DNA of 64,000 nucleotides, from positions 473,737-537,736 of the forward strand of contig RDEW01000036.1 in the NCBI GenBank assembly GCA_011109175.1. Reading direction: 5' to 3'. The notes under the pieces were generated by a model. The model did not search any database. It was given only the letters and a program-made list of their open reading frames with translations, and had not been told where the DNA came from. Source of the DNA: Dicyema japonicum (taxonomy: Eukaryota > Dicyemida > Rhombozoa > Dicyemidae). This document shows positions 2,562 through 42,228 of this stretch, one piece after another; positions within the stretch are counted from its first letter, which is position 1, and each line of letters begins with the position of its first letter. A program made the translations under genes and the position numbers.

Positions 2562-2866
2562 TCGAGCTATGCTAATTGGTTGAAGTTTCTGTTTGTTCGT
2601 ATGTTCCTCATCTCTCTTATTAGAGTGGCGTCATGTGATCCACCTGTCTGGGTGGCGCCCAGTACTAGGCCGGCACGAAAAAGGATCATCTCCTCTCCCC
2701 TACTCCACTGGAGGGGTTTTTACAACTGCAACTATGGACGTCTTTTACTCTTTATGTTGATTCCGGATGGACTCCGTAGAAGTGGAAACTGGATACACTC
2801 AATTAGTTGTTTACTTTAACTTCTTTCTCGGTGTATCCGGGGTTAATAATAAATAAATAATAAAAA
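2562..2866 (+). repeat. SINE-like ribozyme repeat, copy A
   Basis: About 300 bp, shared with copies at 26.8, 41.6, 42.1 and (degenerate) 50.1 kb. It starts with a tRNA A-box-like stretch (GCTAATTGGTTGAAG), continues with a pyrimidine-rich tract and TTAGAGTGGCGTC, then the HDV-like ribozyme core. It ends with CGGTGTATCCGGGGTTAATA plus AAATAAATAA, a LINE-type simple tail. It has no coding capacity (its 79-codon frame is not conserved between copies). The shared tail suggests mobilisation in trans by a LINE. Confidence 0.75.
2627..2689 (+). ncRNA. HDV-like self-cleaving ribozyme candidate (copy A)
   Basis: Strand order matches the HDV nested double pseudoknot. P1 GGCGTC (2627-2632) pairs with GGCGCC (2654-2659). 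P2 GTGATCC (2635-2641) pairs with GGATCAT (2683-2689). P3 ACC/GGT closes a 6-nt loop. P4 GTACT/GGCAC has one mismatch and loop AGGCC. J4/2 is C-GAAAAA, placing a C followed by G-A-A where HDV has its catalytic C75. Folding was done by eye; activity is inferred. Confidence 0.6.
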
Positions 2867-3192
2867 AACGAATTGGCCGTCAAAGGGAACATAATCTTTT
2901 TGAAAGAAAAAGAATATGCCTGCGTGTATTTCAATGACGGAGATATAGTAGCGGTTGAGATGGGATACTAACGGAGAGTCCAAGCCACCAAGACAAGACT
3001 CCTTGTATTCAATTCCCTCATGAACTGCCCTAACTTATCTTTCCTTGCAACTACTACGTTACATTGAAAACTAAGGAATAAATGTTGGGACTTGTAATAT
3101 AATAGAGAAATGTTAGAGACGAGGGAAATCAATGTATTAGAGAATTAGTAATTACCGACTCTATTTTAACAACTACGGTGGTTTGATTCTAT
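2867..3192. other. Intergenic, nothing recognised
   Basis: AT-rich spacer between the ribozyme repeat and the 3' end of the lectin gene. No frame, repeat or RNA gene could be supported. Confidence 0.4.
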
Positions 3193-3711
3193 TTAATGCC
3201 AAATTGTACCTCCAAGAAGAATATCATTAATTTCACAGAGAAAGGGTCGTTTTCTGTCTCAACTTATATCATTCCAGCGTCCACAATGATTAGTAATGAC
3301 GGTACAGTCCTCATTCCCATAATTGTTTGGCTCTCGTTTTATCCAATTGGAGTATTTCTATGTTATCTATCGATTTACTAGATCGTCTCCCAAAGAATCA
3401 ACGAATTTCCCTTCCTCAGCGATATCGTTAACCCCAATGTAAAATGATTTCCTGTACTTCTTCAGAAATGTCTCTACACAATAAAAATCACTCAGCTCAC
3501 CAAAAATGTACTTTTGAGTCTCCTTGCTGTCGACGTTGGCCAAATCTCCCCCCATATTTCTACAAATTTTTTAGCGTTTTTATAGCTTTGGCACTGTTTT
3601 ATGAAAGCGTAACACTTTTCGTTAAAACAGTCTAAATTCATCTCAAACACAACATTTTTCTGAAAGAATAGTCGAGACTGATAAAACTGAGAGAACGACA
3701 AGACTGAACAT
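3193..3711 (-). pseudogene. C-type lectin domain protein, frameshifted and with an internal TGA
   Basis: Minus-strand exons start at ATG 3711. An intron of 19 or 28 nt (both in phase, same acceptor) follows a short hydrophobic leader (MFSLVVLSVLS). The body reads CFNEKCYAFIKQC, then GGDLANVDS, KSFYIGVNDIAEEGKF, then a 21-nt intron at 3358-3378, then REPNNYGNEDC and GRWNDIS. WIGxND-EG, EPN and WND are the core CTLD/Ca-site motifs; EPN suggests mannose-type specificity. Two lesions occur. One base is missing near 3551-3556, in a run of six G, between FVEI and GGDLA. A TGA replaces the conserved Cys right after WNDIS; the frame then continues DRKRPFLCEIND to a TAA at 3193. It is either a secreted lectin pseudogene or two sequence errors. 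Confidence 0.75.
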
Positions 3712-4965
3712 TAATCTTCTCGTCTGTACCACAAATATATATAAATAATACAACACATGTCGTTTTTGATAACAACAGTCTGGATTCACATTATAAATAA
3801 TTGAAAATTAAAAAAAGACAGTCTACATATTGCTTATAAGGTAAATCTAGTTTACACGGTATGAATGCTTTCTTTCTAGGGACCAGGTCTATCAACATCT
3901 CCCATGTAGCAACCCTTCGTGTAGGGTAGAGATGAGAGATTTTTTGGAAGATGGAGGTCTCCTGAGAGAAGTGAATGACGTGATGACTCTAAAGGAGTCA
4001 ATAAGCAGAACTGAATCCTGTAGGAAGTGTTGTAAGAATCAAACCATGAAACTCAGTGACTATTACAGTTCATATCTATTACTACCATTTGGAACTACCG
4101 CGTCAATTATGTCTGGGAAAATCAATAATTAAAACTTAGTGCTTTTGTAAAAATAAAAATAACTAAATTATCCGATAAAAACAAAACCGATCATGAATAC
4201 CCTATTTCCTTTTTCTCGATGTGCAAATACAGCAGGCCATATTCGACGCTAAAATTCCTGGGTCGTCTAGGAAATCGGATTTCTACACTAACAAGACATT
4301 TACGTGAACGCTCTGGCTTTTGAGCGAGTCTCACTAGCCATCCAGAGAGGGAATAGTCATTCAGCCGGGCGGTTACTGTATGATCCTCAGTTGATTGTTT
4401 CTTTCACATACGTGGATATCATGATTCTACGAAATGGAATAATAATACTCTATGTTATTTACGAACACAAGCGCCAATTTATAAGCCTTCCTTCTTGTGA
4501 GTCAGGGAGAAATGACGGACTAGGGAGAAACGAAATCTGATGTTATGAAATTAAGAAAACCTTAAGAATGAAGTATACAAGTTCTAATTCTGTCAGACCC
4601 GAAATTGAAAGGACTTGGAAGATCATCTGTCTCAAACTGTATAGAATGAACAAGGAATACTAATATACTGGTGCACATTTCATTTTTGGACCAGTCGTCT
4701 TCGAAACATGAGAGTCATTGGAAGGAGATCACTAACCTTACTGAAACACATTGGATCGCTGTCGTAAGGAGGAAAAAATAAGAGATAAAGGAACAGGCTT
4801 ATAAATCTATTTCTTTACGAATCGTAACGAAATGCGATTTCAATTCTGAGAGCGGCGAACCTTGACTGAAAAAAATATCCGTAAAGAGATATTATGTACC
4901 CTAACATATTCTGATATATTGACGATTATATTATTAAGAACGTTTGAGAAATAATAATTTAACTT
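3712..4965. other. No recognised gene
   Basis: Upstream of the lectin gene lies AT-rich spacer. Open frames of 66 and 78 codons (3932-4132 and 4304-4540, plus) match no family I recognise. The Lys/Cys-rich frame at 3932 could be LINE-derived, but there is no diagnostic motif. Confidence 0.35.
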
Positions 4966-5150
4966 TTAATTCCCGTTGCTCACTTTGGGATACCCGGAGG
5001 ATATCAGCAGAAGGAAGTTACTGGGCACTATCTTTAAGAAAATTTGGAATATTTGTACGAAGAAGGCACATCTCACTCGGACTAGGACTAAATTTTATAA
5101 AACGTTTATCCGATCCATTCTGTTATACGTGAACCTGAAGGAAAGTAAAC
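4966..5150 (+). mobile_element. LINE RT C-terminal fragment (family A)
   Basis: The plus-strand translation contains PEDISRRKLLGTIFKKIW and FYKTFIRSILLY. These match the post-RT segment of the 29.4-kb element (SEDIARRKLLSTV ... LYEAFVRPILTYN). The fragment ends before the next conserved block, so it is a short relic. Confidence 0.65.
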
Positions 5151-5286
5151 AGGAGCTTGAAAACATACAGGTTTCATCGGCGTCACCTCTCAAAATACAA
5201 TGTCCGAGGAAAATATAAATGAAAAATTATGTAAAATAGGAAATACTTAACTAACAAGCCATCAATAGTTGACGTCAAAAGAACAG

Positions 5287-5357
5287 TCCGCGTTGGTCTA
5301 GTGGTTAAGATTTCGGATTTTCATTTCGGATACCCGGGTTCTATTCCCGGACCCTAA
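5287..5357 (+). tRNA. tRNA-Glu(TTC)-like sequence, acceptor stem not paired
   Basis: TGGTCTAGTGG gives the A box, and CCGGGTTCTATTCCCGG forms a perfect T arm with the B box. The anticodon arm TCGGA-TTTTCAT-TTCGG pairs with wobbles and presents TTC. The layout is that of eukaryotic tRNA-Glu (D arm GGTCTAGTGGTTA). The 5' seven bases (TCCGCGT) do not pair with the 3' seven (ACCCTAA), so this is likely a tRNA pseudogene or SINE head rather than a working tRNA. Confidence 0.55.
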
Positions 5358-5559
5358 ATTTTTTGAAATTTATAATTCCATTATATTAACTCTAGAGCAG
5401 CCACACTTAATTAAAGATATGTTAAGTTATTTAATAATTTTGATTTATAGAACCACGACACTTTTATAAAGGAAAAAGCTATTACAATTGATTCTATGTT
5501 GAAAGTACGAACACATAAATTGGAAGTAGTTATTTTAATTTTTTATATAATAAAATATA

Positions 5560-6110
5560 TAAAGCTAAAGGAGAGACTCTTTTTTACAGCGAGTCGGACT
5601 ACTTGCCAATTTTAATTATGGCCTCTCCTCTTGTGTTCACCTTTAACCTACTCCTATTTAAATCCAATAATAATTGATCGATTGATTGCTTTGTTAGTTT
5701 GACGTTGTAATAATCTCAAAAGGCCGCTGTCTTGTTGTATGAAGTTTTGATATACTATAATCCCGTACAATATCTTTTATGAAGTCAATATAACTTCCAA
5801 TATCCCTTGAATGAACTCGTGGAAAAAACCCATCTTTTAATTAATTGGTTAAATCTATTGAGATAAAAAACAAAAACCGCTCTACTTGTCCTTGTATCCA
5901 AGGAGCTCGTGGACGTCCTGTGACATGCGAAATGGAAAATTTATCGCGTAACTCTTGCAAGTGCTGATTCTAAGTTCTATACCATTTTTTATAATGTAGG
6001 GTCTTTGAAAATGAATTGTTCGGCACATCATTTGATTTTTGCCCGTTCTCTCCAGTCTCATATCTATCTTACCAGTAGCACAGTAAATCTAATTTTTTCC
6101 AAGGTATCAC
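5560..6110 (-). mobile_element. Retroviral-type integrase fragment (Ginger or LTR-element origin)
   Basis: The minus strand encodes LQELRDKFSISHVTG followed by RPRAPWIQGQVERF, the segment around the catalytic Glu of DDE integrases (family pattern: GRPxxPQxQGxVERFN). Downstream, SKLHTTRQRPFEII resembles the N-x-T-x-H-x-T-P-F/Y-E segment that ends these integrases. Frames shift between blocks, and no zinc-binding domain or flanking LTR/TIR was found. The Ginger-like element at 61.5 kb encodes a related product. Confidence 0.55.
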
Positions 6111-8925
6111 GTGTTAGGTTCACTAGATAAATGTTTTATAATTAATATTTTAAATAAAATATGTACTATATGTAATTTTAATATTATTAATAATTTTTTT
6201 CAATTAAAGTTTTACTAAGAAATTTTTTTTTGTATTTTGTGATGAATCTCGCATTTACGGCGTCTCGCGTGTATGGACTGTAACAAATAATTTATTAATA
6301 AAAACGAAGTAAAAATAGATTTGGCGTTTTTTGTGTAAATCACATGCTAGCATGAGTTGGTGACTTTGCGAGAACTTTACCGCTTTATTACCTTGATGAA
6401 CAAATCATTAAGAATTCGCAGAAATTTGTTAAAATGGTGGTTTTTACTGTTTCCGACAAGTCAGAGGTGATTATTCTGGTAGTTCCTAGCACAACGTTTA
6501 TTATTTTGTCCCCGTGAAGGGTGATTCAAATTGTTTTGAAGTTAGCCGACTCTTTTACTTGAATGAGATTGAATGTACGTTGTTACGCTTGAATTGCATT
6601 GAATTAAAATTTCGTGCTAAAGGTGAGACTTGAGTCACCCACGTAGCATTTTTTACCAACTATGGGAGATCTATCAGACTAGGAGGAAGGGATCAAGAGG
6701 TTGACCTTGAACATTGAAGATCCTCTCACAGAAAATTACACCAGGTGCTTCTCACAGAGTTAGCTATTCAATTTGAGATAATAGTGATAGAGACGATTTC
6801 TAGTGAGAGATTCAAACCACGTGCTAGGTTTTTTGGGACATCATTGCACGTGTGTTGGAATCAGAAGATCGTCTCACTTTAAATAATATCAAACACATAT
6901 TTAGATATGACCACGCGGGTTTGTTAATTTTATCTACGATGTGGGCACCACCCCTATCTACCTCTATTCCTTTTTATTAACCAAAAACCACCGTCATAAC
7001 CAGAATGAAAAAATTCAGGTGATCTCGGTATCCCTAGCAGTCTTCGCATTTTTTCCTGGTGTTCAGACTGTGTTCTTGTACATTTTCGATAAGGACGAGG
7101 TTCACATGTGTGAATCTTCTACCAGAAATTGCCACTGTTAACCCTATTTTGAAAGCTTCTGACCAAGTGTTATCCAACCGAGTGTTCGCAGGACACAGCA
7201 TCGTTTGTATGGTATTCGTATATATCGACGAGTCCGAGGTGTGCTCGATATTTTTCATTCCTAGTCGGGTAGAATTCCATATGCAGACTGTCTCTCGTCG
7301 AGGCTTGTTTCATTATTTCCGATGAAGGTATTGATCCGTAAGCCGGAGTCGATTCGACCTTTTCAATTGTCTCTCAAAATGATCTTCTTACATTTATTTC
7401 TGTTCTAGCGGTCGACCTTCTAAGTACTTCGTATCACTTGTTGATGATTCAGTTGGGAGGTAAAGGATCAGCCTTTATTTGAGTTCGGAGAAGATAAGAA
7501 CGGGTAGAGTCGCTTGGTCCAATTGAACGTTTGTAGGACGTTTGATTACGGAACTGTTGCGCTCTCGAAAAATGAGGTCCACGTGGTTATGTTTTGAGCA
7601 GATATGGGGTTCCTCAGATGGAAGAAAGATATGGGATGCAGAATACGGTGACACGGCTGATTCTGAAGCTGAAAAAAAATTTTCCGTGGTTAATTAGATA
7701 AAAGTTCGAGGTGGTGGCGTAACTTTGCAAGAAATGTCTACTTAGCTGCGTGGGGGATAAAAGGGCTTATCTTCCTCTTTCTCATGATCACTGTCGAGAC
7801 GTCGGAAATCCGAAGTTTCCAACTAAGTGTCTGATGTGAGTAGGACCTGGTTCTAATCTCGTCCAACCAAACCGGGAGTAAATAAATAAACAGTAATTTC
7901 ATTCCCTCGCAAAACGAGAAATCTGATATAAGCTTGCACGTGATTGATTAAACATACAACATACAACGCTACGAATAGACGCAATATTTTTAACCCGTCG
8001 ACTGCAATTCCACTCTTGAATGATATTTTGGCACTGGAAATGTCTCCACTGAATTTTGCATAGTTCTTCGAATCGGACTTCATCCTAGTTGGACAGGGGA
8101 ATAAGAAGAACAGAAAACCCAAACCCACAATGTTACCTACTTACTCTTTGCCTTCTTCAATTCCTAAGAGGAGCCATGCGGTTTACCTTTCCAAGGAGAT
8201 TCCCAGTAGCTGGCTTGCATTCTAAAAATCTATCTCTTCTTTAGGGTTTTAGAAAGGACGAGATCAGACGTGCATTCTCTACTTCCATTGTTCAGAACTT
8301 TGGTTTTCCAATGCCTCCTGCCCCGAAACCTTTTCCGTGCTCACGGAGAGAATGAAGACAGGATGACCAACCCACGTGGCAAAATACCACCAAATATCGT
8401 AAGTCAGCTTACATCATAGACTAACCCACGACCACCCCTCACTTGGGCTCAAACGTCCTCCCCCTAAAATGAACAACTAATGCTTACAAGGCTGTCTTCT
8501 CCACAGGTTTTTCATATTTGCACCGTCTTATCCTCTTCATCAACCAACACTCTGGTCCCTAAGTCTCGATATGAAGAACATCTAAGAATCACCCACATCT
8601 CCCACATAGAAGTTGGTGACCCAATATCTGCAAGCATGCGACTTTTTGGTGGGAGCTGTCTAAAAAAATAATCGAATATAAAAAGAACTATCTAATAAAC
8701 CTGGAGTCTTTGTCTGTTAAAATACGAATAATCTAAACTGCCATGACTATAGGATGTTCATTGCAAAAGAGTTAATGTTAGGCCACAGTGAGCCTAAGAT
8801 TCCTCTGGAAATTGATAAAACAAGTAAACGATTAACGGATCTGATATTATACTGTCTGGATAATGTTGCCAGAAAAATATACTAAAGAAACTATGTTGTC
8901 CATTTTCCCTGGCACATCAAGAAGA
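6111..8925. other. No recognised gene over 2.8 kb
   Basis: AT-rich at 6.1-6.4 kb, then mixed composition. Frames at 7059-7325 (plus, 88 codons) and 7853-8128 (minus, 91 codons, hydrophobic) carry no family motif I can identify. No tiny-intron gene could be assembled. It is probably decayed transposon sequence. Confidence 0.35.
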
Positions 8926-9770
8926 TTGTGTTGATAAGAAGTAATCTAAAGAATAAACTGAGGAGATGCATAGATCTACAGGACCGCCTAGACTTTTCTC
9001 CCAAAATCAGTGACCTCCTTGTTATGAACCAGTGTTGAGAAAACAGCATTTATAGAGATCTATCTAGAAGATTTGAAGATGGCAAAAGAGCTGTCAAGAA
9101 TAAACTCCTGGCAGTGATTTCATCAAAGTCAGGATGTTCAAAAAAGGCCCCCAAAAAGTTCTCAAGGACATGTTCAATGCAAGTATTAAGATTGGTCAAG
9201 TTCCACGCGAGCGGAAGAAGACGATTCTACGGATGGTAGCGAAGACAGGAAGGCCAAAGAAGGATCCAGCTAGCTACCGTCCGATCAGCCTTATTCGATC
9301 AATATCATATGCAGGCCAGAGAATCCAAATGTTTAATGAATGGGAATCTCACAAGGACCTCTATTATTTAATGTTCTAATGGCCGGTTTCCCGTCTCCGA
9401 GGTCACCAAGTACGAGATCTCTGATATACGAAGACGACGTGCTACAATCTGATGTGTCGAGATCGAATATGATCTCGGAGAGGAGACTCAATGTGTATAT
9501 GGAAAAGATAAAAGACTGGTGCGGACTCCTAGGATTAAAACTGTTTAATGCAATGGGTATTTTCGGTCGACTCCAGATATGGCAGGAGTTGTGGTGAGAA
9601 GCCAATACCCTCTACTTTTCGTTAAGGAAACCATTTATCATATGGCTATTCAAAGTCCAAAGGATCCACATAAACCCTTGTGTTTGCAATGTGGTGGGGA
9701 TATTTCTAATGAAGCGATGAAGCCATCTCGCTTATTAGAAGACGCATAACGCAAGCAACCTCAATCACTA
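8926..9770 (+). mobile_element. LINE RT fragment (family B)
   Basis: Plus-strand blocks in shifting frames: FKKGPQKVLKDMFNASIKIG, then KDPASYRPISLI (the PxxYRPI RT motif), then SLIYEDDVLQSDVSRSNMI (the YxDD box altered to YEDD), then NVYMEKIKDWCGLLGLKL. The RT region from the end of domain 2 to the DD box is missing. It matches the minus-strand copy near 52.3-53.4 kb (RTLIYADDVLLSIVSRSSMI). Confidence 0.7.
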
Positions 9771-10110
9771 GGAAGAGATATTGAATCTTTTATAATTCTA
9801 AACCAAAACTATAACAAAAGAATAAAAAATAACTTATTAATAAATGCGATCGTCTTCCCCGTGAATATTGTATTGAACAAGGGAAGATTATGTTATTTTG
9901 CTTCTACAGAAATTAGATGGTTATTAAAAGGAAAAAGATTGGATAGATTTGTTATAATATTTGATTCCATTGTTACTTTTTTGAAATCACATATGAGTTT
10001 TGGTAAGCCACCCTTCTGAAGATCGCAGAAAGGTAGGGAAAGTCGAACGGCTCTCTTCCATTCAGAACTTGCACTGAGCGCAACCACAACTATGATTTGT
10101 GCCAATAACA

Positions 10111-10190
10111 CGAAAATATATTTTATACTTTATTATTATTACAGCACTTATCGCCTTGCCATAATAGTTATAGCAAAGCATGTGCAATAN
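10111..10190 (-). repeat. Isolated 3' tail of LINE family A
   Basis: On the minus strand, CACATGCTTTGCTATAAC and GATAAGTGCTGTAATAATAA match the 3' end of the fragment at 32.5-32.6 kb (GATAAGTGCTTATAATAATAA). It marks the terminus of a family A insertion. Base 10190 is an N. Confidence 0.55.
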
Positions 10191-10341
10191 TTTGTGTAAC
10201 GTTAGGATTTATTGTTGACAACTGTATCTTCATATCAGGGAAGTTTTGGTAGATGTATACATTGAAAACCCGACTCACATAAGTAAGTCGCTGGGAAAGG
10301 TAATAGTTTACGTATAGCTTTTCCTAAGATATCATGATATT

Positions 10342-10572: not shown

Positions 10573-10689
10573 TGCGTAGTTTGATTCATCATTACTCCCC
10601 TTTTTTTATTACTCCCCTTTAATTTAATAATAATGTTTCCCTTAATAAAATGTTTAATTTTCAATGCACTCATCCGTGGATGAACTTAA

Positions 10690-11320: not shown

Positions 11321-11324
11321 GCTT

Positions 11325-23696: not shown

Positions 23697-23748
23697 AATA
23701 AAGAAGTGGCCTATGCGAGGTGTTCAGCGCATAGGCCACTTCTTTATT
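23697..23748. repeat. Perfect 21-bp inverted repeat (hairpin)
   Basis: AATAAAGAAGTGGCCTATGC-G at 23697-23717 is exactly complementary to 23728-23748, around a 10-nt spacer (AGGTGTTCAG). It lies just before a LINE family A fragment, in an AT-rich context. It could be a snap-back duplication or the remnant of a small palindromic element. Confidence 0.85.
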
Positions 23749-24149: not shown

Positions 24150-25780
24150 ATACACAGCTGAAAATTTAAGCGTAGCGGCATGCGGTTCACCTGTTGTTGT
24201 GGTGGCGCCCGGTGCAAGTTATGCACTAAAGAGAACCGTTTGAACTTCTCCTCCACTCTACGTCCTTTGGAAGGGTGGCCTATTAACTTCAAATTGCTAC
24301 TCCAATCTGGCGACATCAAACCTATCCCGGGTCCTGATTCCACGCTGGTCATTCTCCAACTCAATGTCAATGAAATCCGTAATAAAGTGCTGGAGCTACG
24401 TTCCCTCTTGGCTCGTTTGAAAGTGGACATTGCCATTATTCAGGAGTCTAAACTCTCACGTCAGCCGCCACCCCACGCTTCCCTGGACACAATATACTCC
24501 GAAAGGACCGGAAAAGAAGTCTCGGTGGAGGATTATTGACGTTTGTTAGGGAGGGTCTTTTGTTCACCGATGTCACCCCGTTTATATCTTCTCTTGGCAA
24601 AGGAGACCCTTTTCTGGAACAAATCTCTATCGAAGTTCCTTTCTCATCCTCAAGACGTTTTACACTATGTAATATTTATATTCCACTCAGAAGTTCGTCG
24701 ACTTCCCTTATTCCAAAGATGTTCCAAACTTATCGAAACTTTTTGAACTGAAAGTCCTGGCATTATGCGGCGACCTAAATGCCAACTCTGGCTCCTGACA
24801 CAATCAGCTGACAGTCACGGAGAGTACATCCTTTCCTTACTTAATAATTTGACTATCCTCAATGATTCGTACGCTTACACAAGAACCCCGGCTTGCAGAA
24901 GGGACAGTCCAACATCCTCGGACCTGTCTTTCTGCTCTCCTTCTATGGCTGGATGTATTACATGGAATGTTCGTTATGGTTTCTCAAGCGACCATAACCC
25001 CATTGTGTTGAGACTTAGAAGGCCTATTTGTTCACTGTGTTGTTCTACAAAGTTCAAAAATTATTTGAAAGCTGACTGGCAAGGTTTCAAGGCGTATGTG
25101 GACAATAGTCTGTTTGACTTACTATGGTTAGTTGTACAGTAGATAAGACGGCCAAGATTTTCTCTGCTATCATTTTGAAAGCTGATAAACTATTTATACC
25201 TGTCGCCTCTTACATGAAGTTCAATCCAAGATTATCATCGCAAATTGTGTCACTCATCAAGAAACGAGATGCGCCGAAGAGAAAAAGAACGCAGTCCAAT
25301 AACTCTTTTATTCTATACGTTCACTGAATACTAAATTATCTGAGCTTATCCGAATTAATAACAGACTCAAATGGAGCCGTCTAGTTGGACGACTATGTCA
25401 CAAAAACTCTTGCGCCACATTTTCGGATAACGCTAAGAAGGATCAATAGCCTCATCAATTAGGAGGACTGCGGTACTGGGGCCGTCACTCGCAACGCTTC
25501 GGAACCTACTCGCAAACAAGATTATGAAGTACTACGTATCGATCATCCATAAAGATTTTTCTCGCTCTACACATGTGGAACGGCGCAGGCCGCAACAAAA
25601 ACCGCTTCACCCCATAATGTTGACAAGGCTATTTAAATTGCTAAGTCCCATCGTGCTTGTGGTCCCGACGGTATTTGCAGTATTCATCTCAAACACCTTG
25701 GATCTCAGGCACGAGCCATACTATCAAGACTGTACAACGATTTTCCTTATGGATCTTTAATTCAGGATGCGACAAATAAC
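24150..25780 (+). mobile_element. LINE with 5' HDV-like ribozyme and 2A-like motif before the endonuclease, 3' truncated
   Basis: The plus-strand frame 24180-24539 begins MRFTCCCGGARCKLCTKEN (Cys-rich), then INFKLLLQSGDIKPIPGP, close to the 2A consensus D-x-E-x-N-P-G-P. It continues directly into endonuclease VILQLNVNEIRNKVLELRSL and IAIIQESKL. Frameshifted EN blocks follow: ALCGDLNANSGS (about 24765), FSSDHNPIVLRLRRP (about 24985) and a basic linker to 25.3 kb. The RT start is SHRACGPDGICSIHLKHLG (about 25645), and the copy ends near 25.78 kb. Arrangement and 2A placement recall CR1-like and trypanosome ingi/L1Tc elements. Dead copy. Confidence 0.75.
24174..24239 (+). ncRNA. HDV-like ribozyme fold overlapping the LINE start codon
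   Basis: Same architecture as the SINE-like repeats but with different bases. P2 is GCGGTTC (24182-24188) with GAACCGT (24233-24239), seven pairs. P3 is ACC/GGT around a 9-nt loop. P1' is GGCGCC (24204-24209). P4 is GTGCA/TGCAC, fully paired with loop AGTTA, followed by C-TAAAGA. The P1 5' strand (AGCGGC) makes only four of six pairs, so this copy is probably weak or dead. Covariation in P2 and P4 relative to the repeats supports the fold. Confidence 0.55.
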
Positions 25781-26725: not shown

Positions 26726-26835
26726 GTGGTCACATTAAATAATTCAATACAATTAATGTCGGAAAATCTATTAAACAATTAAATAAAAAAAACTAAGCGA
26801 AAATTAACTTTTAATATTAAAAAATTATAGAAATA

Positions 26836-27136
26836 GCCGCGTGGCTCCATGTGTTGCTTCGTGGCTAATTAGTTGAAGTTACAGTTTCTGTTCCTCCTCT
26901 TTCTTCTTATTAGAGTGGCGTCATGTGATCCACCTGTCTTGGTGGCGCCCAGTGATAAAGGATCATTTGCTCTCCCCCACTCTACTGGAGGGTTTTCCAC
27001 AACTGCAACTATGGACGTCTTTTACCTTATGTTGATTTCTGGATGGACTGTTTCTGTAGAAGTGCAAACTGGATACACTTAATTAGTTGTTTACTTTAAC
27101 TTATTTCTCGGTGTATCCGGGGTTAATAGATAACAA
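26836..27136 (+). repeat. SINE-like ribozyme repeat, copy B
   Basis: Begins GCGTGGCTCCATGTGTTGC, with A-box-like TGGCTAATTAGTTGAAG. It ends CGGTGTATCCGGGGTTAATA. Its ribozyme region (26917-26966) keeps P1 GGCGTC/GGCGCC, P2 GTGATCC/GGATCAT and P3, but a deletion removes nearly all of P4 and its loop, so self-cleavage is unlikely in this copy. Confidence 0.75.
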
Positions 27137-28005: not shown

Positions 28006-28009
28006 AAGT

Positions 28010-29110: not shown

Positions 29111-29119
29111 TGTTTATAA

Positions 29120-29429: not shown

Positions 29430-32400
29430 ATGTCTAATACGTATTTGAATAATCCTTACTGGTTTTCTACCCTTACCTTCAATGCCAGGGGCCTTAATGA
29501 CTGGTCGAAGAGGCACCAACTATGTCTGGACCTTGCAAAATATGGATGCTCTGTTTGCTGTCTCCAAGAGACGAAGCTCAGAAAAGGACTCGATGAAAAC
29601 CTTGGAGACTACAGACTAATCCTCCTTCCATCGTACTGTAAACACTATGGACAGGGTTTCGCTGTTCACAAGAATTTGCTCCCCAGATTACATCGATATT
29701 GGAAAATTGATGACAGGATATGTGTTATTCAATTTTTTATTGGACCCAAAGGGAAGTCCAGGCAACTAATTTCCATTGTGAACGTGTACGCCCCACATAG
29801 TGGCCGTGTTTCCAAAAACCCAGAGGAATTGGACGTTTTCTACGAAGAACTTGTCGAGGTCGTATCTTCTCTGAAGTTTTCATCGTTCCTCTTTATCGCT
29901 GGTGATTGGAATGCTAAAGCTGGGGTACATCAAGGACACGAACGTTTTATTGGACCACATGGAAGGGGGATCAGGAACTATTCTGGTACTGCTCTGGCAT
30001 ATTTCTGCGAATCCTTTGATTTATTCCTGTGCAATACTCAATTCCAACATTCCGCACGCCACAAGACAACGTGGATGGGCACTAGACTATCGACCACCGG
30101 AAATCTGATAAGGATTTATAATCAGATCGATTATATTCTGTGTCGAGTAAAAGACAAATCTCTCTTACGGGACTCGAGATCTTATGGAGGACTAACTGTT
30201 AACAGTGATCACAAAATTGTGTCAGCAAGATTCAGCTTAAGACTTGGTCCAACTGCGGAGGAGTTCCTCTACGGGATAACTAATAGAAGATGCTTCTTCC
30301 AAACACATCGTGGTGGAGATTCCACGCGATCAAGAAGGTATATGACTGAACTCTTGGGCTCTTCACCAAAAGTACAAGCAGACTATAAAGAATGTGTATC
30401 GGATTCAATTAATAATACGGCATCGGATCTTTCACCAGGAAAGGCATGGCTCGAAACTAGAGAGGGATCATTTCCGCTGCTGACAAACATTTGGGGGAAC
30501 TTAAACCCCATAGCAGTCAGCGTCACCCGGAAGTGTCAGCCCTATTGAATTTGCAGAAGAACTTAAGGCTTAGATCCGAAAATACTGTCGATCCTCAGAC
30601 TGTTTGCAAACTGAAACAAGAACGAAGGCAAATTGAGAGAAAAATCAAACTCCTAAACAGACTACATCACACTAGTCAGTTGGAAAGCAAGATCAGAGAG
30701 GTAGAAAACCTTAAAGACAATGCTGCGACATTCATGGCTATACGACTAATACGGAGGAAGAGCCAATCAGTGAAACTTATTTTGCATGACAGAAATGGAA
30801 AAACAATAGGAAATGTTGCAGAACAGACAGAGTTCATAGCATCGCATATTGAACAACTGTTCTTTGTAAAAGGAGAAAAATCAGATTTCACGCCTAAGAA
30901 CACAACACTTGAACGGATCATTTCACCGGAGGAGGTTTGCATGGCGATAAGGAAACTTAAATCTGGGCGCTCTCCAGGACCAGATAATATACCATCTGAA
31001 TTGCTAAAATTTGGCCCTCCAGAACTTGCAGATAAACTCTCAAAATTGCTGAATGACATGATAGAAAACAAGGACTTTTCAGAAATTGGAAAGGGGATAC
31101 TAGTACCAGTTCAAAAAGGTAATAAACCCCCTGGGCCAGTTGAAAACCTGCGCCCTGTCATCCTTCTAAACACCTTAAGGAAGATCCTTGCCCTAATTAC
31201 TCTTAATCGGATCCAAGAGCCGGTGGACGGGTACTTGGCCCAGAGCCAGAGTGGTTTTAGGACAGGGAGATCAACGGCTGATGTAGTATGGTGCCATAGA
31301 TGGCAATGTGCTATTCAACAAAGATTCCGGAGCTCAAAGACTATCCTTGGAATTGATCTGACCAGAGCTTTCGACACTGTCCGTCGGGGAAAACTCATTG
31401 AAGTGCTTGAAAGTTTCCTGGATAAGGACTCGGTTATTCTGATACGGATACTCTTATCAAACACGAGGTTACGAGTGCGTATTGGAAAATGTTTGTCACG
31501 GGAAATTATTTCAACAGTGGGCACACCCCAAGGAGATTCCCTTTCCCCAGTATTGTTTGCTATATACCTTGAATCGGCTCTGCAAGACCTCCGGAAGTAT
31601 TACAACAATGATATTATGGAGATCGTGTATGCCGATGATGTTGACTTTATCTCGACTGACAAAGAAGCACTCTTACGTCTCTTGGAGGTTGCATCAGGCT
31701 GTTTGGCCAAATGGTGTCTATCACTGAATGTTCAGAAAACGGATATTGTTGAAATTAAGCGGATGGAACTACGCAATAGTGAATGTTGGAGGAAGACCGT
31801 AAAGCTTGGCTCTCTTCTCGGAGACTCCGAAGACATTGCAAGAAGAAAATTGTTATCTACGGTTACTATGCAAAAACTTATGAAATGTTGGATAAGAAAA
31901 TGCTCGGTCGGGCCATCACTCCGACTCAGGTTGTATGAGGCGTTCGTGAGGCCCATACTAACATACAACTCTGGGACGTGGGGAATTTCGAAAACGGACG
32001 AACAAAACCTTGACTCCTTTCACAGAAGGCAACTTCGGTCTCTCTTGGGACTAAAGTGGCCAATGCGTGTAGGGAGTGAAAATTTATATAGAAGATGCGG
32101 TTCCGGACCTCTGAGCACCATGATCATGAAGGCTCGCTGGAGATTGTTTGGCCATATTCTCAGATTGGAACAAGACACGCCAGCAAACGTCGTCATGGAA
32201 GAATACTTCGATACGTCAGGGGAGAAGTTCAGAGGTCGTCCAAGAATAACTCTTCCGGAAGTCCTTAATGGTGACCTGAGATCAGTAACCAGACTACTAA
32301 AGGACGGTGAAGACCTTAGTAGTCTGCGGCACTTGGCATCGGACAGGAGGGGATGGGAAAGGCTAATTAAGAGGATTGTTCAGACGCGGCACGAATAGAA

Positions 32401-34408: not shown

Positions 34409-35501
34409 TAATATGTTTGTAGAAAGTTAAGAAAATATCAATGAGGGATATTTTTGCTTGTTTTAAAGAAGGAAGAATATCCTATTAGTAATAATACTAA
34501 GTTTAATATACTCTTTTCATCATAAATTATGGTGGTATTACATTAACTGTATTTGGGTTACTTATAAATTTTGACTTTGAATTATTTACTTTTTCAAATT
34601 TACCTGCGGGAATAAAGTTGTATAAGTAAATCAAAATCTTCATCATGGGTAGCTCACTAATTAATGACGATCATCAACGTAACTGATTTTAAAGGCAAAA
34701 TTTTTCTCATTTCCAGCCCTTTCTCTGGAAGCAGTTTTTCTATGTGCTCAAGAAATTCATAGTTGGATCGAGAAGTGGAGAGTGAGGGGTAGTGGAACAT
34801 GGAGATTTGGTACTTCAATAAATTCTTTAATGTCCGTATAATTATGAATACGGGCTTTTAAGGATTTTAGAAAAATTAATCATTGATATAACAACTGATA
34901 TATTTCTGGTTCTGATGGCATCTACAGGAATGTAGGCAAAAAATCCTGAAACTTCTTCCACGTCTTGGTCTTTAGGATACTGAAAATCCGACCTCATGAG
35001 TTTTGAGATGTTCTTTTATATCCAATGAAAGTAATGCTAATGAAGAAAAACCTAATAAAAATAATCCGAAAGATGGAGTTTTCGGCGAATTCTCGTCAAA
35101 TGAATCCCACCCGTGAGGCAACAAGTCCTCTGGCACGTTGAAAGGGATCTTCTTACCTTCTCCCTAATCAAATCCACTGGTGAAGATTGCCATTATCAAA
35201 ACTCTTACGCCGAAGAATAAAGTGATGTCCGCTACGGTAGGACGTGTGATGATTGAAAAGGAGGAACTTCCCATCGAAAGATCAAAGGCCATCCACCACG
35301 AGGTACTCTCATCAGTCGTGTTGGAGCAGCCTGAACCACGTCATAGACATACTTGACATTGTCTCCCCGCTTTACTTATAGATGATTGTAGAGAAGGTTA
35401 TTCATAGATATTGGTAATGTTTATAGAAAGCAACATGAGCGTCATCGAAAGAATATTGATTATTATTCTTATATAAATAAAATTTATTAATATTTATTAC
35501 A
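34409..35501 (-). other. Unresolved coding-like sequence plus LINE scrap
   Basis: On the minus strand, 35.01-34.63 kb holds open blocks in different frames: MRSDFQYPKDQDVEEVSGFF, AYIPVDAIRTRNISVV, then MFHYPSLSTSRSNYEFLEHI and LLPEKGLEMRKIL. No family was recognised and the 20-27 nt intron trick did not join them convincingly. 35.14-35.26 kb repeats the jockey-like 3' region seen at 27.7 kb. It could be one decayed LINE C-terminus or a fast-evolving gene. Confidence 0.3.
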
Positions 35502-35847
35502 ATGAGAAAGTTAATAAGGAAATTGAAAATTGACTTTTTAAGTAAGAATAAACCAGGTAATAAAAGATACCTCACTCAAAAATATGATGTTGATAAAATA
35601 TCAGAAACAAGGGACAAAACCAAAATTGAAAACTATATAATCCAACAAATTCAACAAATTAGAAATGTAAGGTTTATATTATTTTAAGGATTTTGAGGAT
35701 GAAGAATTAGAATCGTGCATATCAGAAATGTGGAATTGTAACAACTATAAAGAAATAGAAAATTTTATAAGAGTAAATATGATTTTTATTGTTTAGAGTA
35801 AAACCACTGATATTACAAATACAGAAGACTTGGATGTATTCATTTAG
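35502..35847 (+). CDS. Small orphan protein, 99 aa, three exons
   Basis: Exons 35502-35666, 35689-35772, 35797-35847; introns of 22 and 24 nt, GT...AG, phase 0. The first ATG gives MRKLIRKLKIDFLSKNKPGN, a strongly basic N-terminus. A Lys/Gln-rich helix follows (KIENYIIQQIQQIRN), then an acidic segment starting at exon 2 (DFEDEELESCISEMW). No signal peptide, TM or known motif. The two clean in-phase introns of host size argue for a real gene rather than chance. It lies 1.1 kb downstream of TAF4 on the same strand. Family unknown; the basic-to-acidic helical layout could suit a small scaffold or nucleic-acid-associated protein, but that is only a guess. Confidence 0.65.
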
Positions 35848-36380
35848 TATTTATTATAGAATGTAATTAAACAAATTATAATACACATACAAAGGTCATC
35901 AATTAAATTGAATGGTTAATTCACTAATTTATCATTTTAATGACTAATCAAATTATTTGTAATTCAATTAATCAATATGACATTTATTAGAGAGTAATTC
36001 AGATTACAACCCAGACATTTATTTCTTAAGATTTATTGTAATTCCGAATAACCAATCTATCTCCTGGACAAATTCCATAAAAATCGAAGCTAGTCAAAAA
36101 AGGGCTTCCAAAATTACAAAAGATGGACTTCTGGAAAGTCCCAGTCTCCAATGCCTCTCGAATCTTTAATACTTAAGAACAGAGAAACGTGCCGTTTGCC
36201 ACTACCAGAAACCAGTTACACGGCCGATGCTTACTTGCGCTGGTTCATGTGAGGATCATCATGCCAAACTGAAGTTTCTTTTGGAGCGTGGTGAGATCAG
36301 GTGATTAGTTAATTTGTGTACCGTGTTCTTTAGAATTTATTATTATTAAAGGTCCAAGTCCATAAATATTCTTTGTTATT
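35848..36380. other. AT-rich intergenic sequence
   Basis: Downstream of the orphan gene. No frame or recognisable repeat was found up to the LINE debris at 36.38 kb. Confidence 0.35.
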
Positions 36381-37770
36381 CTAAATTTCATAATGAGACC
36401 ACCGGATTCTCAGAATATAATGATCAAATTGGATCTCCCGTTGCCTTTAATAGTATTCGCAACGACGGAATCATTGAAATGTGGCTATCAGGATTCCTAA
36501 AATAAGGAGAATAATAAACCTCTCATAAGGTTTACATCACTCATTGATTTTTGGACACTATATTCTGAAATCCATGACACGAGTGTTACAAGGTGACCCA
36601 TTCGGACCTTTGCTCTTTTCCCTGGGAATTAACCCCGCTGCTTCGTCAATTAGAGCTCCATTGAATATGGCACAATTGGATGAGATTGGAAAACGGTGGT
36701 TACGTAAATAATCTCTTCTTTCGCATGCCTTGGACTATTGCTAAATCCTTCCAAATGCGAGATTCTCAATGTTGATTGCACTGAAAAAGAATTCTCTTAA
36801 ACCTCTCGATACGGTTTCTGCCTTCCTTCCGGAGATATCAGTCATTGAGAGAGATGATGTTATTTTCCTAGGATCCCCTCCATGCTATAGAAAAGTGTCA
36901 TCTATCCTATATAAAAAATTGAGTCTGAAGAACTTTTCTTCAACAACCAATGCTACTTGAGTCCACTATTTTTCTTACGTAACTTTCATCTTGTGTCACG
37001 AGTATTGTTTTTATTGCGAACTTCCGGATGTTTCGCGAATACAGATGTATTGGAAAGGATTGATAACAAGATAATGACTACAATAGAGAAGGTATTAAAT
37101 AATTTTTCTCAATGGCACCGGGTGGTTGCAGTGTAGCTCCCAATTTGATTTGGAAGAGTTGGGATCCGATTACCGATGGAATTGGCTCTTTCAGCGTTTC
37201 TGAGTTAGGTCAATTCCCCTAACAATTTAGTGCACCAGATCCTACCCTACCTAAACGGATCTCGGCTGGACTATTAGAGTGTTTGGTCAAGAAACTTGTA
37301 CTCTCTTAATAGATCCCCGAATCATCCTATGAAACAAAGTGACTTGGATGAACAGCTCTTCATACATACCATCTCGCATCCTTGACTCTGCATCAGCAGG
37401 CGATAGCGGTGGTTTGTTGAGAGCCCTCCCGTGCGCCTTCCTCAGGACTGTCCTTGACAATTATTCCACAAGGATAAGAGTGTGCGTTTGACTCGTTCTA
37501 TATGTTTGTGTAGCTCACCGTTACAGATGCGGAAGGATTGTCGGCGTTACGGACCTTCACGCCCTCTCGTACAAGAGAAGCGCGGGAAGGAGTTGAGAGC
37601 TATTGTGAGTGTACTGGATTGCATAGGATTGGGATTAGCAAACAAGATGCCTGACTGGACCACTCTTTTTTTGTGGTAAATTGGGAAATATCACGCTTGG
37701 ACTGTTAATTCTGCATACGACTTCTCTCTCTCTCCAACCTTGCTATGATAGCAACTCATTCAGGTTCAGC
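36380..37770 (+). mobile_element. Decayed LINE with fragmentary RT and C-terminal region
   Basis: Plus-strand scraps: DPFGPLLFSLGINPA in broken frame (RT QGDPxGPLLF motif), LPMELALSAFLSSV-like text at about 37.17 kb (IRLPMELALSAFLS), and DCIGLGLANKMPDWTT with TLFLW at 37.62-37.68 kb. The last resembles the GL-x(n)-RPDGxTLxPW segment of the long C-terminal region of some LINEs. Stops and frame changes are dense. Confidence 0.5.
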
Positions 37771-37789
37771 CTCAAAAAAGGTCTGTCTT

Positions 37790-38585
37790 TAACATGGATT
37801 CCGAGTTAACCATTCAACTTCGACATTCTTGACGACCCCCTCGCAATTTATCTCAGAAGGATTCAACGTTCAAAAACCACATTTAATGGCTTTTCTTGTT
37901 TCTCTTGACATTACTAAGGATTCAGTCTCAAGAAAGTCTTTAACGAAAAAAATATTTGAAAAGGATATCCACCTTTACCTGAAAAGATGGCTCTCTAACT
38001 CTGAGTGGAAGATGAGCAGGTAAACTGCAGCAACATGAAATCGATGATACTTTCTCAAATGGGTTGCCCCAAGAATTTCCACTATCACTAAGACTTTTCA
38101 ATTTTTATATACGAGACATACCACAACCCTAAGAAAACTGTCTCCTCCTTTCATATGGGATCCTTGCCACGATTTACAAGCAATTTATCCGACCAACGAT
38201 GACGTATGCAAGTCCTTCATGGGCAATGCAAATATCACGATCTTCCACATTGAAATTATCTGCAATCGAGGAGACTGCAATAAGGTTAATTGGACCAGAT
38301 CACAATATCCAACCTATTGAAAACTTTTTAATTGAACTACAACGGAAACTATTAGAGGAGGCTGTTCTACCGAGCTGCCCTCTATTCCAAATACTATCGA
38401 ATTATCTACAATCATACAGAAATTTTGAGCCGATGCCATGTCCAATGGGAAGAGCTGTTCAGGATTATCGACCTCGCCGGACTCGTCCTCACCTTTGTCG
38501 GTCTGGGATCACTTAGTTAGATGAGAACTTTTATTTCTTTCTCTTTGACCCAGTGATCCTGGGGGTAATAATAATAATAATGCGA
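37790..38585 (+). mobile_element. Jockey-like LINE 3' half (family B2) with structured tail
   Basis: RT blocks: VSLDITKDSVSRKSLTKKIF (first catalytic Asp region, altered from AFDSV), then frame-shifted GLPQEFPLSLRLFNF at about 38.05 kb and the C-terminal frame 38199-38516 (MTYASPSWAMQISRSSTLKL, EETAIRLIGPDHNIQPIENF). The 3' end is TTTGACCCAGTGATCCTGGG followed by (TAA)n. A similar but truncated end occurs at 41.43-41.47 kb. Confidence 0.7.
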
Positions 38586-38844
38586 ACAACATAGTCATTG
38601 CTGCAAGGGACATAGGATACAAAGTCAGGAATGCTCAATTCTTTAATTCAATGGTTGGAAAGGCTATGTCTGGAGATGCCCCAAATTCCTTCAGTTTTTG
38701 CGCCAAACCCCATACTTTTGTACATTCTCTGAGTCAATTACGGCATTTATACAAAATAGCTGCATTAGTTAAGTATGGATCAAACTTAATATAAATTTAA
38801 ATAAAATGACTCAAAATTAGTGAAAAGTTAATAATAGTAGAGAA
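38586..38844. other. Spacer
   Basis: Short region between the LINE tail and the 3' end of the MBT gene; nothing recognised. Confidence 0.3.
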
Positions 38845-40294
38845 TTAGTCCTTAGGCAAGTCAAAATGGTGACCCACAGCCTGACACCATCCAATAGGAT
38901 ACAAATACGTGCTCCTGACATCTACCCACTGGTCAAAAGAATCTGACCAGCCGATAAAGTGCAATAATAAGAGCCTCCAAACAATTCGTACAATCTTGGC
39001 AGCACAGACAAGTCTACAATGAACCATCAAGACAACTCAGGCTCTACAGAATCTACAGCCTCGAGGACCATTCCAACCTCAAAGTTAGTGTCAAAATAAT
39101 CCTAAAATAAAAAAAATAGTAAACAGAAGAAAAACAGTAGTGGGGACTAATCTTTAAACCCAACAATAACACAGTAGAAAACACACTAATATTCTTATAT
39201 TCTATCTTTATCCCATGAACAAACCATTGGGAAGTTCAAGGGGGATGTCATTCTGTAGACAAAATCCAATTGGGAGAATATAAGGAGACTGAAAACTAAA
39301 GTAGAAGAACTCATCTGAGCATAAATTCTAAACACAAATGACTCCATAGTTAAGAACCCGTTCAATCACTCCCAGACAGATTTTATTATTCCCAAAAGGA
39401 TGGACAAATTCCACACCCATTTGAGGCTCAAATAAACAGGTTTTCGGAGTTTTGTAAGAAATTGAATCAACGATCGAATTGTGCCACTCCCAAACGTTGT
39501 CATCCGATTTTGGTCTCTCAATTAATTTATCTAGACATTATATAACATAATACTTTTTATCTTACAACCAATCTTCTGACTCCATTTTATGGGATGTAGA
39601 GAATCTGAGCAGTCATCGTAGACGTAGTAGAGGTCATCATCTTCGTCCTGTAGTTTAGTACCATAACTTATACGTCCAAATAAGTTAGGAAAAGACGCCG
39701 ACCGACTATTTTAAGTATTTTTGCGGTCCTCATTTGACTGTGATTCTCACAGTCAGCAACCTCCATCAGCTGACCAACTTTAAACCGACTGACAGTGAGT
39801 CTGGTGCTCAGCTATAATTACTGAAGTAAAAAAACTATCTCTTTAAAGTCGGATGGGAAAAGTTTTCGATGCCTCATCCTTTTGAAAAAACTTTCCTTGA
39901 ATTGACTCTGAACAAAATCAGAGGGTTGAGAGAAGACAGAGTAGTATCTTATCTTTGGTTTAAGTTTGGGATCCAAAATGTCCACAACGAGATTCATAAT
40001 ATGAACCCACACATATTTTGGACTCCAGGACATAACAAGTAACTCCACTTGTACAAAAAAACCTAAATATCCAATTTAATATACCAGAATGACTGACAAT
40101 AATCCCAATATTATAAACCTCTTCATCATTTTCATTGAAAGGTATAAGAACGAGGAAACCAATTATTAGATCGTCATTAAGGTCATCAATGTTCAGCTAT
40201 AGCTTAATTTATAAACAACGTGTTTAAAACTCCAAAATGAGGGTGACTTGGTTAAATCATTTGATAGTAAATCAACCCAGTTGTCAAATGTCAT
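38845..40294 (-). CDS. Four-MBT-repeat chromatin protein (SFMBT/L3MBTL2/MBTD1-like), 11 exons
   Basis: Nuclear methyl-lysine reader of Polycomb-type repression, judging from the family. Minus exons: 40294-40220, 40196-40085, 40062-39836, 39811-39674, 39647-39554, 39530-39336, 39314-39225, 39201-39173, 39151-39125, 39101-39037, 39013-38845. Ten introns of 21-26 nt, GT...AG, all in phase; 1221 nt = 406 aa. Repeat 1 (aa ~1-105) is divergent. Repeat 2: FKVGQLMEVADCENHSQMRT, HPIKWSQKIG. Repeat 3: NVWEWHNSIVD, MGVEFVHPFGNNKICLGV, YILPIGFCLQNDIPL. Repeat 4: SPHYCFSSDYFDTNFEVGMV, LLLLHFIGWSDSFDQWVDVR, YPIGWCQAVGHHFDLP. Repeat 4 keeps the aromatic cage (D, W, Y/F positions), so it is the likely ligand site. 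No SAM domain or zinc finger was seen. Exons 8 and 9 are only 29 and 27 nt. Confidence 0.9.
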
Positions 40295-40429
40295 TTGATG
40301 CGCGAAATTTTATTTCTTCCCAAATTAAAACAATAAATTATTTTTATTAATAAATAATACATTAATTTTATTTCTTGATGTATGATGTGGATCCTATGTG
40401 GATCATCCCAGAGGTAAAAGACCAGACAA

Positions 40430-41475
40430 CATAACCACATGAGAACTGAAACACCTAGGTCATCAAGCCCTGGAACTATTATCCTATATCTTCAATTTAT
40501 CCATCAACACTAACACAATCTCTGAAATATGGAAGAACTCTTTAATTAAACCTAATCGAAAACCTAACAAACCAATAAATGAACCATCATCCCATCTTCC
40601 TACAACAACATCAAATCAAGATCTCGTTAGCTTCCAAATGGAGTCCCTCAATGGTCCCCACTATCCCCCAACTCTTCAACTTATACATAAATACGACATG
40701 CCACAAACCTGTAATGAGAACTGTCTAATCCTCTCCTACGCCGATGATATCATTTGCCTCCATGGATAGAAGCACTCAATCAGCGACTCAATCCGCTTAA
40801 AATACTTGACAAGCTGTAACTATGGATCTCGAAGCGGAGGCTTGATATATCAGCAACAAAGTCTTCTGTCACGCTGTTTACCATGTAGAAAAGGCAGCTC
40901 TTTTTCAAACCAAAAAATCCTTATGAAAAACGAGGCTATTCCTATTAACAAAACACCGAGGATTCAGGGGGTCACCTTTGATCTGGGACTCTCTTTTATC
41001 CGACATGTTGAGAACAAAGTAACTTTTGCTCTTAAGAAAATGAGCATTTTAAAAGTACTCTCAAAAACTTAAAGACCAAACTGAGAGCCTGTCACAGTTT
41101 ATGAACAATTTATCCGACACGATGACTTCGTGCGCAATGCAAATTTCACGCTCTTTGTCATAGAAACTATCCGCAATCAAGAGACTGCAGTAAAGTTGAT
41201 TGGACCAGAACAAGATCCAGCATATTGACAATCTTATAATTGAATTAAAACGACAATTTTTATAGGCGGCCAGTCTACCAAGCTGCCCCCTGTTTCATAT
41301 ACTATCAAGATATCTATAAACATGCAAAAAGTTCGAGACAATGCCATTTCGGATGAGAAGTGCTGTACGTAATTCTCGACTCCTTTGGGCTCGTCCTCTA
41401 CCTTGTCGGTCTGGGATCAGTTAGTTAGTTGAGAACTTTTATTTCTTTCTCTTTGACCCAGTGATTCTAGGGCTG
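40430..41475 (+). mobile_element. Jockey-like LINE RT fragment
   Basis: Plus strand: HLGHQALELLSYIFNLSINT, frame change, LILSYADDIICLHG (intact YADD), then GVTFDLGLSFIRHVENKVTF. Its C-terminus parallels 38.2-38.5 kb in shifted frames, and it ends TTTGACCCAGTGATTCTAGG at about 41.47 kb without the (TAA)n tail. The RT middle is deleted. Confidence 0.7.
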
Positions 41476-41605
41476 GCGAACAGGATGGCGAGGAAGGTTG
41501 TGATTACTAAATTTTAACTTGTTATTGTTGGTTAAATAAAGTGGGGTTAAGATAACATTTATATTATATTAAAAATATAACATTTATATTTATTTCAAAA
41601 TAGAA

Positions 41606-41893
41606 ATACCCGCGTGGCGCCATGTGGTGCTTCGTGACTAATTGGTTGAAGTTTCAGTTTTGTTCGTCTGTTCCTCCTCTTTCTTCCTATTAGAGTGGTG
41701 TCATGTGATCCACCTGTCTAGGTGGCGCCCAGTGCCAGGCCGGCACGAAAAAAGGATCATTTGCTCTCCCCCACTCCACTGGAGGGGTTTTCACAACTGC
41801 AACCATGGACGTCTTTTACCTTTTATGTTGATTCCGGATGGAATCTGTAGAAGTGGAAACTGGATACACTTAATTAATTGTTTACTTTAACTT
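41606..41893 (+). repeat. SINE-like ribozyme repeat, copies C (and D at 42074-42361)
   Basis: Begins GCGTGGCGCCATGTGGTGC, has A-box-like GACTAATTGGTTGAAG and the complete ribozyme core. It then breaks off at CTTATTTCTTCGTGGG, where copies A and B have CTCGGTGTATCC, i.e. the tail is lost at the LINE junction. Copy D is the duplicate 468 bp downstream. Confidence 0.75.
41697..41760 (+). ncRNA. HDV-like self-cleaving ribozyme candidate (copy C, best folded)
   Basis: P1 GGTGTC/GGCGCC (six pairs, two G-U). P2 GTGATCC (41705-41711) with GGATCAT (41754-41760), seven pairs. P3 ACC/GGT around TGTCTA. P4 GTGCC/GGCAC perfect around AGGCC. J4/2 is C-GAAAAAA. Everything needed for the HDV double-pseudoknot core is present and in the right order. 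Confidence 0.65.
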
Positions 41894-42164
41894 ATTTCTT
41901 CGTGGGAAATGTAGATTTCACGATCCTTCTCATTGAAACTATCCATAATCGAGGAGACTGCAATAAGGTTAATTGGACCAGAACACAAAATCCAGTCCAT
42001 TAAAAATTTCTGGGTTAAGATAACATTTATATTATATTAAAAATATAACATTTATATTTATTTCAAAATAGAAATACCCGCGTGGCGCCATGTGGTGCTT
42101 CGTGACTAATTGGTTGAAGTTTCAGTTTTGTTCGTCTGTTCCTCCTCTTTCTTCCTATTAGAGT

Positions 42165-42228
42165 GGTGTCATGTGATCCACCTGTCTAGGTGGCGCCCAG
42201 TGCCAGGCCGGCACGAAAAAAGGATCAT
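42165..42228 (+). ncRNA. HDV-like ribozyme candidate (copy D)
   Basis: Identical to the 41697-41760 copy, by tandem duplication. Confidence 0.62.

Follow-up and report, generated by a model that had tools for sequence, protein, structure and literature searches.

A 64,000-nucleotide stretch of contig RDEW01000036.1 (positions 473,737 to 537,736, forward strand; hereafter the window) carries copies of a short interspersed element (SINE) of ~320 nt, SINE-A, and the 5' end of a long interspersed element (LINE), both of which contain a core of paired regions (P) and joining segments (J) laid out like a hepatitis delta virus (HDV)-like ribozyme. The locus raises the question whether this core is a selected RNA fold and whether it cuts itself, as a preliminary description of the window had proposed. 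The comparisons reported here make a selected RNA fold common to the SINE and LINE families likely, mainly from P2, because each version of this helix pairs fully with its own partner strand and less well with that of another group. Self-cleavage across the whole family is not supported by the sequences. The reading preferred here, with a rough probability of 0.45, is that the core is a structured module at the 5' end, perhaps a delta-like or HDV-descended fold that has mostly lost catalysis.

The core fold could be placed at 41697..41760 (+), within a SINE-A copy at 41610..41904 (+) that has GGCGCC near the start of its 5' head and other sequence substituted for its 3' end. Its strands are P1 41697-41702/41724-41729, P2 41705-41711/41754-41760, P3 41712-41715/41720-41723 and P4 41732-41736/41742-41746, followed by J4/2 at 41747-41753; the P2 and P4 versions match their own partners and P1 is without covariation. 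To sample the family, the genome (64.7 Mb) was searched with pieces of these elements, each search scoring about 40 candidates, and the groups described below are samples of the best matches with BLAST boundaries. Among 233 core matches, 175 lay inside a locus and spanned 80% or more of the seed, and 170 distinct cores free of N were assigned to five related groups: SINE-A (56), SINE-C (27), a diverged set D (20), LINE-I (36) and LINE-II (31). Covariation was assessed in an alignment, A1, of 60 of the 170 cores (12 per group, hand-picked for spread).

P2 occurs in three consensus versions, GTGATCC/GGATCAT in SINE-A and D, TGGATCC/GGATCCA in SINE-C and GCGGTTC/GAACCGT in LINE-I and LINE-II, each forming 7/7 pairs with its own partner and 3-6/7 with that of another group. 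The P4 consensus is GTGCC/GGCAC in SINE-A, GTGCC/GGCAT in D, ATGCC/GGCAT in SINE-C, GTGCA/TGCAC in LINE-I and GTGCA/TGCAT in LINE-II, and swapping its strands between the SINE and LINE groups leaves 3-4 of 5 pairs. Over the 170 cores, P2 was 94% paired, P4 92% and P3 81%, with slid controls giving 20-51% for P2 and 17-71% for P4; P3 is mismatched at one end, by A-A in SINE-C and T-T in the LINE groups. For the whole structure in A1, 85.1% of cells were paired versus 78.9 +/- 0.5 in shuffled alignments and 123 cells were changed on both sides versus 52 +/- 7, none of the 500 shuffles being as high in either case, although relatedness inflates both of these cell measures. Slid versions of the whole structure gave 31-47% paired.

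Several results weigh against a selected fold of this kind. In the two measures that relatedness inflates least, A1 did not rise above the shuffles: the number of pairs changed on both sides was 10 versus 8.7 +/- 1.6 (144/500 shuffles as high) and that of further pair types 29 versus 31.0 +/- 2.0 (445/500), and with P2 and P4 alone the same two measures again stayed at shuffle level (89/500 and 498/500, respectively). The case for the fold therefore rests on a few group-level events, namely the three P2 versions. Minimum-energy folds computed without pseudoknots were no better than those of shuffled sequences (z -1.19 to 0.97, six sequences), and RNAalifold predicted zero pairs from the five-group alignment, where the P2' strand of one SINE group sits one column out of register. 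What points to HDV descent, moreover, is the layout only. The strands do follow the nested order with P2, P3 and P4 that an HDV-like ribozyme requires, but this order comes cheaply: with the first base of J4/2 left free, a descriptor matched 116 times among 239 single-strand dinucleotide shuffles, or about 0.5 times per strand, which rules out strand order as evidence in itself. In the real window, the same descriptor matched only at 41697 and 42165, missing the LINE and the copies at 2627 and 26917.

The preliminary description had reported the complete strand order at three SINE copies and had read the base changes between LINE and SINE as strong evidence for a selected fold. The order holds at 41697-41760 and 42165-42228. 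The latter core (42165..42228, +) is identical to the former and lies in a SINE-A copy at 42078..42372 (+), an exact tandem duplicate of the 41610..41904 copy; since each of the identical 468-bp units 41544-42011 and 42012-42479 contains one SINE-A copy and their tandem duplication was a single event, the two cores are not independent and were not counted as two instances. The third copy, at 2571..2853 (+), is truncated in its 5' head and its core (2627-2689) is damaged, P4 reading GTACT/GGCAC with an A-C mismatch. A fourth, at 26835..27133 (+), has a core at 26917-26966 that lacks P4, as had been stated, and also most of J4/2. A diverged SINE-A-related fragment that had escaped earlier notice, at 50123..50251 (+), consists of the head and the 5' half of the core and brings the SINE-A inventory of the window to four copies and one fragment. 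The LINE 5' end at 24169..24293 (+) belongs to group I and carries its core fold at 24174-24239; P2 and P4 are indeed compensated relative to the SINEs, whereas P1 (AGCGGC versus GGCGCC) is mismatched in 2/6 pairs. A further fragment akin to the LINE 5' region was found by sequence match at 10004..10090 (-). Across the sampled genome copies the outcome is alike, the P2 versions being compensated and P1 showing no covariation, so that compensatory change speaks for the fold through the three P2 versions and not through the sturdier covariation measures.

Whether the core cuts itself depends first on the cytosine that had been proposed as catalytic at the start of J4/2. This base turned out to close P4 on the 3' side: the outermost pair, to which it belongs, is among the 60 aligned cores GC in 21, GU in 18, AU in 15 and another combination in 6, the pattern of a base pair. 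Over the 170 cores the position holds T (U in the RNA) in 82, C in 76, A in 8, G in 1 and a gap in 3. A cytosine there is frequent in SINE-A (48/56) and LINE-I (23/36), occurs in 5/20 cores of D and is absent from SINE-C (0/27) and LINE-II (0/31), and is therefore not the family-wide feature expected of an HDV-like ribozyme. C is the first base after the 5-bp P4 in 27/170 cores, 26 of them from SINE-C (26/27 of that group), and J4/2 is without any C in all 31 LINE-II cores; a C is thus present in some groups, in one or the other register, and missing from LINE-II. In the theta ribozymes tested, replacing C by U was inactivating (PMC10879173). Searches with covariance models, the check suggested in the preliminary description, gave no HDV-type match in Rfam for the window at E 1 or for 8 loci and three short stretches at E 10, and RF00094 at E 10 found none in the genome among the 85 of 414 candidates that were scored, with 14 control genomes likewise giving none over the cut-off.

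P1, the pseudoknot helix on which a likeness to delta ribozymes would depend, is paired in 87% of cells over the 170 cores compared with 37-47% when slid by 1-2 positions, and its consensus forms 6/6 pairs in four groups and 5/6 in the fifth. In the 60-core alignment it also paired above its slid versions (32-72%), with no sign of covariation of its own (86.6% versus 86.1 +/- 0.6 shuffled, 141/500 as high). Swapping P1 strands between groups left pairing unchanged, and the fifth pair of LINE-I P1 is G-G in 27/36 cores. Inspection of the consensuses by eye suggests a candidate P1.1 in four groups, between UG of L3 and the CA or CG that follows P1', one place off the HDV position. A helix between the 5' leader GCGTGG and downstream CTACGT, which would compete with P1 and appears by eye to be compensated between LINE-I and SINE-A, was not counted; no counterpart was seen in SINE-C.

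The places where inserted copies begin also bear on cleavage, since a ribozyme that forms the 5' end would leave copies with GG as their first bases. The predicted cut corresponds to position 90 of the SINE-A consensus. In a set of 20 SINE-A copies selected by their 3' half (those not used before, from 41 such matches), 14 start in the first six consensus bases and the remaining six at positions 13, 18, 32, 44, 83 and 155, leaving 0/20 at the cut. A first LINE search gave 0/42 matches starting at the cut and one within 2 nt, and a second gave 1/40 starting exactly there (L129, a LINE-II match) and three within 2 nt. The five bases upstream of the cut have at most one change from the group consensus in 32/36 LINE-I and 29/31 LINE-II cores, and AGCGT directly upstream of the core is retained in most other sampled genome copies of the LINE. 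Copies beginning at the cleavage site, as expected of a ribozyme of the R2/L1Tc type, are accordingly not the pattern in these best-scoring samples. Since sampled copies so rarely start at the cut, these data indicate that the RNAs that were mobilized were mostly uncut at the predicted site. In many copies, including L093, L096, L104, L115 and several of LINE-I, a variable AT-rich leader, ATTTTGAAAATAG- or TTTTGAATTTTAG-like, precedes the conserved 5' start. No convincing pair of pol III A and B boxes was seen by eye.

Taken together, an active HDV-like ribozyme that cuts 5' of GGTGTC or GGCGTC with the J4/2 cytosine as general acid appears unlikely as an account of the family, although parts of the evidence fit it. 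Every strand is present in the SINE-A consensus, C is frequent in SINE-A and LINE-I and found one place later in SINE-C, P1 pairs far above its slid versions, one LINE-II match begins at the predicted cut, and the location near the LINE 5' end resembles that in L1Tc and R2 (PMC4035085, PMC11331408). On the other side stand a base that follows its P4 partner and is never C in LINE-II or, in that register, SINE-C, the P1 helix with its lack of covariation and its G-G pair, the scarcity of starts at the cut and the absence of HDV-type matches in the Rfam searches that were run. The claim of HDV-like self-cleavage made for these elements at the outset is thus not upheld family-wide. By group, self-cleavage is unlikely in LINE-II and possible for the SINE-A version, because the copy at 41697 carries every strand and the C. 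Because the family as a whole does not conserve what cleavage requires, the fold may be a structural element and not a working ribozyme.

An ordinary three-way-junction RNA, in which the complementarity of P1 is accidental and the conservation comes partly from the LINE reading frame, is a similarly doubtful explanation. It would account for the lack of P1 covariation and for a strand order that also arises in shuffled strands, and several copies have an uninterrupted frame through the LINE core; it would leave to chance that P1 pairs so far above its slid versions and that its consensus forms 6/6 or 5/6 pairs at the place where the HDV fold requires them. The coding argument can be followed in the LINE itself. 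The open frame of the window copy (24180..24536, +, 119 codons) starts from an ATG inside the fold, reading MRFTCCCGGARCKLC... and then a 2A-like SGDIKPIPGP (24306-24335) and the start of an endonuclease, and the corresponding frame in L120, which at 159 codons is the longest open among the translated copies, reads MRFTCCCGGAQCKFSMEENR... followed by SGDVEPNPGP and the endonuclease start. Stop-free pieces in L123 and L117 match PF14529 and PF00078, respectively, so that a 2A-like motif, an endonuclease and a reverse transcriptase are all represented, spread over several copies and not within one uninterrupted copy. A search for homologues of the LINE N-terminus returned 2 proteins among 153 candidates, of which P0002 aligns over the 2A motif and the beginning of the endonuclease. 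The LINE-I and LINE-II consensuses differ at 7/66 core positions, and in the 20 in-frame codons there are 1 synonymous and 4 non-synonymous differences, so the reading frame alone does not explain the conservation of the core. The window also holds another LINE at 29430-32398 (+), whose endonuclease frame (372 aa) overlaps its reverse-transcriptase frame (635 aa).

A third alternative, in which GGCGCC of the SINE head is the 5' strand of P1, separated by a long J1/2, and the cut falls near the SINE 5' end instead of 90 nt inside, is very improbable: GGCGCC is present in SINE-A and SINE-C heads (D heads often have GGTGCC or similar), is by eye no worse a partner for P1' GGCGCC than the inner GGCGTC and would recall the long structured J1/2 described for R2 (PMC11331408), but CGT just upstream of the head strand is kept in most copies that reach the head, and those RNAs were therefore not cut there.

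The family also includes copies consisting of ~125 nt of the LINE 5' end, which end near CCTACCAA and are found without the rest of the LINE. A script labelled 32/68 LINE-type copies as solo, at least one of them wrongly (L047, which runs on into LINE sequence); L068 and L072 are shorter, ending before that point. Target-site duplications (TSDs) flank some of these 5'-only copies, with 12 nt in L135 and L142 (one event or a duplicate), 11 nt in L070 (truncated inside the core), an exact 9 nt in L144 and 12 nt with one mismatch in L067; the other 5'-only copies have none or short matches within reach of chance. For SINE-A, TSDs of 24, 18 and 13 nt were found in L095, L108 and L100, respectively, among 45 sequences, and none in many other copies. 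Some copies therefore bear the duplications that mark retroposons. SINEs usually take over LINE 3' ends, so it would be unusual for a retroposon to consist of nothing but a LINE 5' end. When the 3' tails of SINE-A and SINE-C were used to look for a partner LINE in the fetched loci, only related SINE copies and weaker matches were obtained. L046 and L072 each have two LINE 5' regions in close tandem, ~121 and 176 bp apart. Elsewhere in the window, a near-perfect inverted repeat at 23697-23747 gave a weak mir-4657 score (25.5 bits versus a cut-off of 73), and a tRNA-like sequence with several non-standard pairs lies at 5287-5358 (+; Rfam tRNA, 40.6 bits).

Under the preferred reading of a structured 5' module, a 2A-bearing endonuclease/reverse-transcriptase LINE in its two groups, the three longer SINE groups and the ~125-nt copies of the LINE 5' end have a conserved RNA fold in common, located close to the 5' end. 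The comparisons support P2 and P4 as RNA helices in a three-way-junction layout with which P3 is compatible, as well as retroposition that left TSDs at some copies, and most sampled inserted copies keep the sequence upstream of the putative cut. The fold may act in the element RNA as a 5' module that shields the 5' end or is recognized at insertion. Its ancestor may have been an HDV-like ribozyme of the kind known at this position in R2 and L1Tc, with most groups having lost cleavage or making no use of it. A broader proposal, which we regard as rather unlikely as a whole, is that an animal LINE/SINE superfamily has retained a 5' fold of HDV type as a module for insertion, some groups having lost cleavage, in parallel with trypanosomatid Pr77/SIDER, and that it spawns short retroposons made of the LINE 5' end only; its SINE-A version may still self-cleave internally.

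In relation to known systems, the literature searched described HDV-like ribozymes in animal SINEs only for R2-derived elements. Animal retrozymes are likewise short non-autonomous retroposons tied to a self-cleaving RNA (PMC7229834), but theirs is of the hammerhead class, and no hammerhead Rfam match was obtained in the window, the 8 loci or the three short stretches scanned here. R2 and the R2/R1 SIDEs offer a parallel in non-autonomous elements whose source is a LINE encoding a 5' ribozyme (PMC3414825), whereas the short copies found here comprise only ~125 nt of the LINE 5' end. L1Tc carries a 2A sequence, as the present LINE does. In L1Tc/ingi Pr77 (L1TcRz), NARTc and SIDER2, too, a 5' hallmark is common to a LINE and to short elements; those systems are trypanosomatid and the present host is probably an animal, judging from cadherin domains in the window. 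SIDER2 holds a tandem pair of hallmarks, and only the first member of the pair agrees with the HDV-like fold (PMC5509151); the SINEs here have the reverse arrangement, a partial head copy with the first strand only and a complete inner copy. SIDER ribozymes from Trypanosoma congolense and Trypanosoma brucei were inactive when assayed (PMC4035085).

A close comparison is with R2, in which the order P1-P2-P3-P1'-P4-J4/2-P2' also lies near the 5' end of a non-LTR (long terminal repeat) element (PMC11331408). The present elements differ in having no family-wide C and no P1 covariation, and in that most sampled copies keep the sequence before the cut. Two R2 observations in the same source speak against an easy transfer: replacement of the catalytic cytosine (C98A) was severely inhibitory, so that the R2 work does not show that a fold lacking this C functions, as LINE-II would need, and deletion of a P2 strand was also severely inhibitory, with a leaderless ribozyme that keeps the C intermediate (PMC11331408). 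In that work, the 5' ribozyme structure itself raised the insertion of engineered templates, and pseudouridine limited or abolished cleavage yet did not lower insertion (PMC11331408). If the fold described here works without cutting, these elements would provide a natural test of the idea from R2 templates that it is the structure of the 5' ribozyme, and not its cleavage, that matters.

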